Part shown: one piece after another, positions 45,490 through 47,885 of the stretch
How positions within the stretch are numbered: position 1 is the stretch's first letter
Layout: each line of letters starts with the position of its first letter
Source: Arthrobacter citreus
GTDB taxonomy: Bacteria > Actinomycetota > Actinomycetes > Actinomycetales > Micrococcaceae
Assembly (NCBI RefSeq): GCF_038405225.1
Contig: NZ_CP151657.1
Coordinates: forward strand, 3,410,001 to 3,474,000
Direction of reading: 5' to 3'
Length of the DNA: 64,000 nt
Program-made: the position numbers and the translations under genes
Notes under the pieces: model-generated
Told to the model about the DNA's origin: nothing
The model's input: the letters and a program-made list of their open reading frames with translations, nothing else
The model's database searches: none

Positions 45490-45939
45490 ATGGCAAAGCT
45501 CATTCTGACCCACGAAGTAACCGGTCTCGGCGCTGCCGGCGACGTCATTGAGGTAAAGGATGGTTACGCACGTAACTTCCTTCTGCCCCGTGGCTTCGCT
45601 CTGACCTGGACGAAGGGTGGCGAGAAGCAGGTTGAGTCCATCAAGGCTGCCCGCGCCGCCCGCGAGCACGCTTCCTTGGAAGATGCTCAGAAGCAGGCCG
45701 CTGCACTCTCCGCCAAGCCGGTCACGCTGGCCGTCAAGGCCGGCGAGTCCGGTCGCCTCTTCGGTACGGTCAAGGCCGCCGATGTTGCTGCTGCTGTCGA
45801 GGCTGCCGGCCTCGGCACCATCGACAAGCGCAAGGTTGAACTGCCGACTCACATCAAGTCGGTTGGTTCCTTCCAGGCCAACGTTCGTCTGCACGACGAC
45901 GTAGCTGCTGTCATCGACCTCAACGTCGTAGCCAGCTAG
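45490..45939 (+). CDS. rplI: 50S ribosomal protein L9 (bL9)
   Basis: The 149-residue protein shows the L9 N-domain [34 protein letters not shown], a long connecting helix and the C-domain with [15 protein letters not shown]. It binds domain V of 23S rRNA at the L1 stalk base. AAGGAACC precedes ATG 45490, 17 bp after rpsR. It is the last gene of the operon and is followed by a strong terminator. Confidence 0.97.
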
Positions 45940-45973
45940 CACGGCCACCAGCACGCCGTCAGGCGTGTGCCGA

Positions 45974-46006
45974 GCGCCCTCCGCCCTAGTGGCGGAGGGC
46001 GCTTTT
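45974..46006 (+). terminator. Rho-independent terminator of the rpsF operon
   Basis: A perfect 12-bp stem (GCGCCCTCCGCC with GGCGGAGGGCGC) encloses the loop CTAGT and is followed by TTTT. Confidence 0.95.
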
Positions 46007-46021
46007 GCGTCCTGGGACCGG

Positions 46022-46073
46022 CTGTGGATATCAACTGTGGATATCAACTGTGGATATCGACTGTGGAAATCGG
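46022..46073. repeat. four 13-bp tandem repeats, each containing a DnaA-box-like nonamer
   Basis: The unit CTGTGGATATCAA occurs twice exactly, then as CTGTGGATATCGA and CTGTGGAAATCGG, with no gaps. TGTGGATAT (46023, 46036, 46049) is one mismatch from the reverse-complement DnaA box TGTGGATAA; the fourth copy (46062) has two mismatches. A 13-bp period places the boxes about 1.2 helical turns apart, all in one orientation, as in DnaA filament-loading arrays. Confidence 0.85.
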
Positions 46074-46226
46074 CTGAAACCGGGGATAACCACGGCCCGT
46101 ATGTGCATTCCGGCCATCTGTCAACCTGCAAGTATGGGGTGAATGTTGAGAAAAAATACTCTCTATGCACAGGTGTGGACGAACGTTTCCCCTAGTCAGA
46201 GCGGTATTTGCTCAAAAATGAATAGT

Positions 46227-46304
46227 TTATCCACACCCTTATGCCCAACCTGTGCACAAGACACGCCCAGTTATGCACACCTTCTCCACAAGGGCTGTGG
46301 ATAA
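46227..46304. promoter_or_regulatory. DnaA-box cluster upstream of dnaB
   Basis: Perfect TTATCCACA lies at 46227-46235 and perfect TGTGGATAA at 46296-46304. Between them are TTATGCACA (46271-46279) and TTCTCCACA (46282-46290), each with one mismatch, and TGTGCACAA (46251-46259) with two. The cluster lies about 200 bp before the dnaB start and next to an AT-rich stretch. Confidence 0.8.
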
Positions 46305-46502
46305 CTCGTTTGGGAGCAGGGGGTTTGAGGGCTACGGTTGCGGGGGAATCCCTTCTGATCGAGTCCTTGCCACCGCTGGGACGGCGCCATTCCACACCGG
46401 CGGCCGCCGCACGCCAAAGTGTCACCGCGGCGGGATAGACCTGAATCAGCTGCCACCTGGCAGGGATCGCACCACAGCAGTACCTTGGGAAAGGGTTACA
46501 CA

Positions 46503-47885
46503 GTGTCGCTCATGCATACTGACGCACCGGCATCGAGCTCCAGCTCCGACTTCGCGCGCACACCGCCGCAGGACTTGGTTGCCGAGCAGTCGGTCCTGGG
46601 CGGCATGATGCTCTCCAAGGACGCCATCGCCGACGTAGTGGAGGTTCTCCGCGGCGTCGACTTCTACCGCCCGGCGCACGAATCGATTTTCGAAGCCATT
46701 ATCGACTTGTACGGCCGCGGTGAGCCCGCTGACGCCGTCACCATCTCCGATGAGCTGACCAAGCGCGGCGAAATCAGCCGCATCGGCGGGCCCGCCTATC
46801 TCCACACGCTCATCCAATCCGTGCCCACGGCTGCCAACGCCGGCTTCTACGCCGAAATTGTCCGGGAGCGCGCCGTCCTGCGGCGCCTGGTGGACGCGGG
46901 CACCAAGATCGTGCAGCTGGGTTACTCAGGCGACGGCATGGAGGTGGACGACATTGTCAACGCCGCCCAGGCCGAGGTGTTCGCCGTCGCGGAGCGCCGC
47001 ACCGCCGAGGACTATGTGCCCCTGAAGGACATCATCGAGGGCACCGTTGATGAAATCGAAGCTGCCCAGCACAAGGGCGAGGGCATGACCGGCGTGCCCA
47101 CCGGATTCTACGAACTCGATGAATTGACGCAGGGGCTCCACCCCGGACAGATGATCGTGATCGCCGCGCGGCCTGCAGTTGGTAAATCAACCTTCGCCCT
47201 GGACTTCGCCCGCTCGGCCGCCATCAAGAACAACATGACCACCGTCTTCTTCTCGCTGGAAATGGGCCGCAACGAGATTGCCATGCGCCTGCTCTCCGCC
47301 GAGGCCACCATTGCGCTGCAGGACTTGCGCAAGGGAACCATCAAGGATGAGCAGTGGGGCAGGATTGCCACCACCATGGGCCGCATGAACGAGGCGCCGC
47401 TGTTCATTGATGACAGCCCCAACATGTCCCTGATGGAAATCCGGGCCAAGTGCCGGCGGCTGAAACAGCGGCACGACCTAAAACTCGTGGTCCTCGACTA
47501 CCTCCAGCTGATGTCCTCCGGAAAAAAAGTGGAATCGCGCCAGCAGGAAGTCTCCGAGTTCTCCCGTGCCCTGAAACTGCTGGCCAAGGAACTTGAAGTC
47601 CCCGTTATCGCCCTGTCGCAGCTGAACCGCGGTTCGGAGCAGCGAACCGACAAGAAGCCCATGATTTCGGATCTTCGTGAATCCGGCTCCATCGAGCAGG
47701 ACGCCGACATGGTGATCCTGCTCCACCGCGAGGACATCTACGACAAGGAATCCCCGCGCGCCGGCGAGGCTGACGTGATTGTGGCCAAGCACCGTAACGG
47801 TCCCACCAAGACCATCACCGTGGGCTTCCAGGGCCATTACTCCCGCTTCTCCAACATGGCCGTTGAGGGCGGCTCGGGCTTCTAG
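46503..47885 (+). CDS. dnaB: replicative DNA helicase DnaB
   Basis: The 460-residue hexameric helicase unwinds DNA at the replication fork. GTG 46503 (VSLMHTDAPA) is chosen because GGAAAGGG lies 9 nt upstream. The N-domain shows QDLVAEQSVLGGMMLS and YRPAHESIFEAI. The RecA-like domain has the P-loop ARPAVGKST, FFSLEMG, the Walker B region LVVLDYLQLM, and SQLNRGSEQR with the arginine finger region. No intein interrupts it, unlike some actinobacterial dnaB genes. It lies after the S6-SSB-S18-L9 operon behind its own regulatory region. Confidence 0.97.
   Translation: MSLMHTDAPASSSSSDFARTPPQDLVAEQSVLGGMMLSKDAIADVVEVLRGVDFYRPAHESIFEAIIDLYGRGEPADAVTISDELTKRGEISRIGGPAYLHTLIQSVPTAANAGFYAEIVRERAVLRRLVDAGTKIVQLGYSGDGMEVDDIVNAAQAEVFAVAERRTAEDYVPLKDIIEGTVDEIEAAQHKGEGMTGVPTGFYELDELTQGLHPGQMIVIAARPAVGKSTFALDFARSAAIKNNMTTVFFSLEMGRNEIAMRLLSAEATIALQDLRKGTIKDEQWGRIATTMGRMNEAPLFIDDSPNMSLMEIRAKCRRLKQRHDLKLVVLDYLQLMSSGKKVESRQQEVSEFSRALKLLAKELEVPVIALSQLNRGSEQRTDKKPMISDLRESGSIEQDADMVILLHREDIYDKESPRAGEADVIVAKHRNGPTKTITVGFQGHYSRFSNMAVEGGSGF

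Follow-up and report, generated by a model that had tools for sequence, protein, structure and literature searches.

A conserved cluster of DnaA boxes beside a candidate dnaB promoter in Arthrobacter citreus and other Actinomycetes

The systems closest to the locus described here are those of the mycobacteria. According to the available part of PMC7738170, the five regions most strongly bound by DnaA in Mycobacterium tuberculosis include oriC, the Rv0010c-Rv0011c site, the region upstream of dnaB (Rv0057) and the rpmH-dnaA region, and homologues of the five were found by ChIP-seq in M. smegmatis. The same part of that paper reports that M. tuberculosis DnaA binds upstream of dnaB in vitro, that the homologous dnaB-upstream region was found in the M. 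smegmatis ChIP-seq data, and that a M. tuberculosis DnaA mutant showed both less binding upstream of dnaB and lower dnaB expression, which amounts to one correlation (PMC7738170). In Caulobacter crescentus, predicted DnaA boxes are present upstream of dnaB, which has been assigned to the DnaA regulon (PMC8203912, available part). The DnaA boxes of Arthrobacter citreus occur upstream of the same gene and in the same place as the DnaA-bound region of M. tuberculosis and its M. smegmatis homologue, although binding was measured in mycobacteria (PMC7738170, available part) and is predicted here. The A. citreus locus differs in carrying a 13-bp tandem array. C. crescentus belongs to a distant phylum, and the likeness in that case concerns the predicted boxes and the assignment of dnaB to the DnaA regulon (PMC8203912, available part). 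A DnaA-controlled dnaB promoter is of a kind already known. In the open-access literature searched, we found no account of a phased arrangement of the boxes at the dnaB gene of Actinomycetes.

The genome of A. citreus consists of a single contig of 3,882,960 bp, and the stretch analyzed (the window) covers the 64,000 nucleotides between positions 3410001 and 3474000, the dnaA gene lying just to the left of it. Positions given below without a contig name are those of the window. The genes around the rplI-dnaB gap (45940-46502) were identified by Pfam as those encoding S6, SSB, S18, L9, and DnaB. The rplI gene (45490-45939, plus strand), an open reading frame carrying the N- and C-terminal L9 domains, is the last one in the rpsF-ssb-rpsR-rplI series, and dnaB (46503-47885, plus strand), encoding the replicative helicase, carries the N- and C-terminal DnaB domains; its GTG start was picked by eye based on the ribosome-binding site. 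A perfect 13-bp hairpin followed by TTTT was detected at 45973-46003 (plus strand), both as an inverted repeat and in a terminator scan which yielded one terminator in the gap vs. 0.5 in shuffled sequences. Since this hairpin likely terminates the rplI operon, dnaB would need a promoter of its own. No match was found in the phage collection, and a phage origin of the gap was therefore rejected; likewise, the single Rfam match in the gap scored 18.9 bits vs. a threshold of 50, and the presence of a structured RNA was not retained.

The gap carries seven DnaA boxes, two exact ones and five with one mismatch. These seven boxes occupy 282 bp and account for half of the 14 boxes with no more than one mismatch in the window, where the mean number obtained in 100 shuffles was 4.2 and the largest 9: the clustering is beyond chance. 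Four of the seven lie next to dnaB: an exact box TTATCCACA at 46227-46235 (plus strand), the one-mismatch boxes TTATGCACA at 46271-46279 and TTCTCCACA at 46282-46290 (both plus strand), and a second exact box TTATCCACA at 46296-46304 (minus strand). The two exact and two one-mismatch boxes that the initial annotation had placed between 46227 and 46304 are thus all present. The other three belong to a distal array of four 13-bp tandem units (46022-46073, minus strand). The initial annotation had credited every unit with a DnaA-like nonamer; the four units are indeed there, but only three of them contain TGTGGATAT (ATATCCACA, one mismatch), the boxes starting at 46023, 46036, and 46049 on the minus strand, and the fourth is degenerate (TGTGGAAAT, two mismatches). 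A weak box TCGTCCACA, which differs by one mismatch from the actinobacterial TTGTCCACA, occurs at 46174-46182 (minus strand) in a register occupied by boxes in other genomes, 127 bp upstream of the candidate -35 element described below. The AT-rich stretch noted previously is real but moderate: the richest 60 bp of the gap (46182-46241) contain 60% AT, a value reached by 0.08% of the windows in the 464 kb around oriC, the best value at oriC being 65% (0.015% of the windows).

A candidate sigma-70-type promoter (46310-46338, plus strand) begins 5 bp after the last box, with a -35 element TTGGGA (46310-46315) and a -10 element TACGGT (46333-46338) separated by a 17-bp spacer. Its identification is based on phylogenetic footprinting, since the stricter consensus promoter scan of the gap yielded none. 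Alignments were carried out on 10 close relatives and 25 wider Micrococcaceae, leaving out loci L047, L063, L066, and L080; locus L002, which is too near the window, was also left out of the wider alignment, the promoter counts, and the phasing analysis. In the aligned rows, TANNGT is conserved at the position of the -10 element, and TTG is present 17 bp further upstream in most of them. The pattern TTG-N20-TANNGT was found in 26/29 Micrococcaceae upstream regions, vs. a mean of 0.4 and a maximum of 3 in shuffled sequences. The distance from the last box to the -35 element is exactly 5 bp in 15 of these 29 regions and exactly 19 bp in seven others, 22 in all; throughout the class, a promoter-like match was detected close to the last box in 35/79 cases vs. 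1.4 in shuffles. In the wider family, the box located 5 bp upstream of the -35 element is often degenerate. Two other conserved elements were observed upstream of the promoter. The block CCTGTGCACAAGACACGCC (46249-46267, plus strand) is exact in 20/25 aligned Micrococcaceae and in 21/29 Micrococcaceae in all; it includes a weak minus-strand box TTGTGCACA (46251-46259), which explains its conservation only partly. The motif TGTCAAC (46119-46125), a putative factor site located some 185 bp before the -35 element, is kept in 25/25 aligned Micrococcaceae.

The DnaA boxes are conserved with dnaB. The search for relatives based on RplI gave 594 matching stretches, 247 of which encode a relative, and the best 80 of these 247 were kept; 51 of these loci end before dnaB and were not counted. 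In all the 29 relatives reaching dnaB, at least three boxes occur within 500 bp upstream of this gene, vs. a box in only one of the 29 in a control stretch upstream of rplI. In 13 of the 29, rplI and dnaB are separated by 1.1-2.8 kb: the boxes adjoin dnaB, and the 400 bp that follow rplI are free of them in all 13. The fact that the boxes stay by dnaB where the two genes are apart indicates that the cluster belongs to dnaB, and the idea that it is part of the rplI operon was rejected. The stretch between -500 and -100 of the DnaB anchor was then examined in 90 of the 147 matching Actinomycetes genomes. These 90 genomes belong to 32 families; one or more boxes are present in 80 of them, from 27 families, and two or more in 58, and the other 10 genomes have no box in this stretch. 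The corresponding figures in the control stretch between -1000 and -600, which may include coding DNA, are 7/90 and 0/90. The boxes at -500 to -100 total 176 in the 90 genomes, whereas 200 scrambled motifs gave 2.8 hits on average; the most frequent of these motifs (73 hits) corresponds to the box moved by one base, and the next one gave 15 hits. In other classes of the same phylum, a box was found in 4/20 genomes. Same-strand box pairs 13 bp apart occur in 7/190 genomes, namely the window genome, those carrying loci L003, L034, L035, L040, and L042, and one distant genome; L002, which was counted outside these 190 genomes, also carries such pairs. The tandem repeats are a clade-specific addition. 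The initial annotation had proposed the presence of both boxes and repeats in the same gap of close relatives as a test of its reading: the boxes passed it throughout, and the repeats are confined to the closest relatives.

The positions of the boxes are also phased with respect to the promoter. The promoter pattern, which was chosen regardless of the boxes, matched in 136/190 genomes; after G209 and any -35 element overlapping a box had been dropped, 135/189 genomes remained, the other 54 having no usable promoter-like match. A box is located within 110 bp upstream of the promoter-like match in 117 of these 135 genomes and is absent from this stretch in 18. Plus-strand boxes occur about 7, 19, 30, 40, 51, 63, 74, 84, and 94 bp upstream of the -35 element and hardly between these positions, whereas minus-strand boxes are found mainly at 4-5 bp, with a minus-strand box at 4-6 bp in 51/135 genomes. 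The boxes in the window lie 5 (minus), 19, 30, and 74 bp (plus) upstream of the -35 element, and the weak sites 50 (minus), 62 (plus), and 127 bp (minus) upstream. In the 136-genome set, the period is 10.9 bp with an R of 0.835, a value as high as which was obtained in none of 500 uniform scans, and the 71 unique family-distance pairs in the 135-genome set gave the same period (R 0.834). When each family was represented by a single genome, the mean R was 0.871 and the lowest 0.757, the 99.9th percentile of the null distribution being 0.668 and its maximum 0.779. Fourteen families share one common phase (R 0.901, reached in none of 20,000 random phases); decoys consisting of scrambled or wrongly spaced hexamers showed no common phase (R 0.39-0.59), although each of them covers only 2 to 7 families. 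Since the families share ancestry, this phasing reflects a conserved layout and not 14 independent inventions. A step of about 11 bp fits one helical turn as well as the 9+2 spacing of adjacent DnaA sites, as in E. coli oriC. Among 285 promoter-near boxes, 281 lie 0-100 bp upstream of the -35 element, four overlap the stretch from the -35 element to the start site, and none is located downstream of the predicted promoter within 60 bp. As the boxes are upstream of the promoter or abut it and are nearly absent from it, the layout is activator-like.

Based on these data, we consider it probable that the gap is the regulatory region of dnaB, comprising its own promoter and a DnaA array, with DnaA most likely activating transcription. 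DnaA boxes exceeding chance expectation are present beside a footprint-predicted promoter, and they are conserved with the gene presumed to be regulated. The rplI operon would stop at the hairpin terminator, and dnaB would be transcribed from the sigma-70-type promoter with its -35 element at 46310-46315 and its -10 element at 46333-46338. DnaA would occupy the boxes at 46296, 46282, 46271, and 46227, and perhaps the weak sites between them, all on one face of the helix; bound on the face adjoining the RNA polymerase, it would most likely activate dnaB, so that the supply of helicase would track the level or the activity of DnaA. Additional DnaA is probably bound by the distal 13-bp tandem boxes, as a reservoir or a long-range helper. 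We infer that the promoter is used, in which direction DnaA regulates it, and what the distal array does. The initial annotation, which had suggested an ancillary origin, a titration locus like datA, or a DnaA-controlled dnaB promoter, is partly supported: the last of these suggestions finds good support in the class-wide conservation, the abutting promoter-like element, and the mycobacterial DnaA binding published in PMC7738170 (available part).

The boxes, and above all the 13-bp tandem array, might instead titrate or inactivate DnaA in the manner of datA or of a DnaA-box cluster, which would delay initiation. Several boxes are indeed present outside but near oriC, as in these systems, and clusters of DnaA boxes occur near oriC in Streptomyces, although no paper on Streptomyces clusters outside oriC was found in the open-access literature. 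The gap equals oriC in its number of boxes (seven each in 300 bp, with at most one mismatch), the proximity of the locus to oriC means that it is duplicated early, and the distal array is away from the core promoter. Unlike datA, however, the conserved boxes are locked in position to a promoter-like element, which titration does not need, and the 13-bp pairs are limited to the close relatives plus one distant genome. As the main role of the locus, titration is possible but doubtful; it could be a side effect of the array, for which the distal tandem repeats are the best candidate. Repression of dnaB by DnaA, instead of activation, seems rather unlikely. The autorepression of dnaA works through boxes at the dnaA promoter, which speaks for a similar effect here, but the predicted core promoter is overlapped by only 4/285 of the nearby boxes and the 60 bp downstream of it contain none, which fits poorly with repression. 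DnaA is known both as an activator and as a repressor (PMC8203912, available part), yet weaker DnaA binding accompanies lower dnaB expression in M. tuberculosis (PMC7738170, available part).

That the locus, some 50 kb away from oriC, is an ancillary replication origin is very improbable. Ordered boxes adjoin DNA with 60% AT, and there is a small local dip in the cumulative skew in the 10-kb bin holding dnaB. This dip (about 240 units, near 3456200, and partly recovering) remains within the other fluctuations of the curve, however, and the minimum of the cumulative GC skew over 464 kb is at C1:3387986, near oriC and crgA, with no turning point at the rplI-dnaB gap, in a genome where the skew is weak. 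A fork moving leftward from the gap would meet the ribosomal genes on that side head-on, a promoter would explain the ordered boxes, and no DnaA-trio run of at least four was found in the gap, nor is there one at oriC. The ancillary origin was therefore abandoned, being unsupported by the GC skew, the gene orientation, and the DnaA-trio search.

The locus was also considered in its genomic setting. The dnaA-dnaN gap was taken to be oriC; three exact boxes were found there at C1:3405506-3405669 and the identity of DnaN was confirmed. The oriC region lies to the left of the first base of the window, as initially proposed, at about 4.3 kb, which makes the distance to the rplI-dnaB gap about 50 kb rather than the 46 kb suggested. 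Exact boxes number 27 genome-wide, and 11 by direct count within the 464 kb around oriC. Only four places in these 464 kb reach a density of three boxes per 300 bp, namely the crgA-downstream gap, the rpmH-dnaA gap (four boxes), and oriC and the rplI-dnaB gap (seven boxes each). The pattern TTWTNCACA has 80 sites in the genome, with neighbours within 400 bp at three places only, downstream of crgA (four sites), at oriC (three), and in the rplI-dnaB gap (three). The oriC, rpmH-dnaA, and Rv0010c-Rv0011c regions bound in mycobacteria (PMC7738170, available part) match the three dense clusters other than that at dnaB. Within the 464 kb, no dense cluster corresponds to the fifth mycobacterial site (Rv3843c). 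We put forward with somewhat less than even confidence a broader reading, in which an Actinomycetes-wide DnaA array, locked to the promoter in steps of about 11 bp, would act as a feed-forward helicase switch within an ancient four-site DnaA circuit consisting of the dnaB array, the conserved crgA-downstream cluster, oriC, and the dnaA promoter. DnaA would assemble on double-stranded DNA abutting the RNA polymerase, and the switch would couple the synthesis of the helicase to the activity of the initiator. As for the dnaB locus itself, the present analysis extends a binding peak reported in mycobacteria to a testable rule of class-wide scope, on the way in which DnaA may control the amount of the helicase that it loads.

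The dense cluster in the rpmH-dnaA gap (L082:4220-4252, i.e., G000:C1:3407220-3407252) fits the autoregulation of dnaA. The cluster downstream of crgA is located in the crgA-rhomboid gap (L083:3878-4223, i.e., G000:C1:3390878-3391223), and since the two genes are convergent, it can be the promoter of neither. Of 147 matching Actinomycetes genomes, 70 were used; one or more boxes occur in the 500 bp downstream of crgA in 62 of these 70, vs. 0/30 upstream. The most frequent scrambled motif (58 hits) is again a one-base shift of the box, and the next one gave 13 hits. In position, this cluster matches the cryptic DnaA site of mycobacteria, Rv0010c-Rv0011c, Rv0011c being presumably crgA. The available part of PMC7738170 describes that site as having no obvious correspondence in other species; the present counts suggest that it has counterparts across the Actinomycetes.
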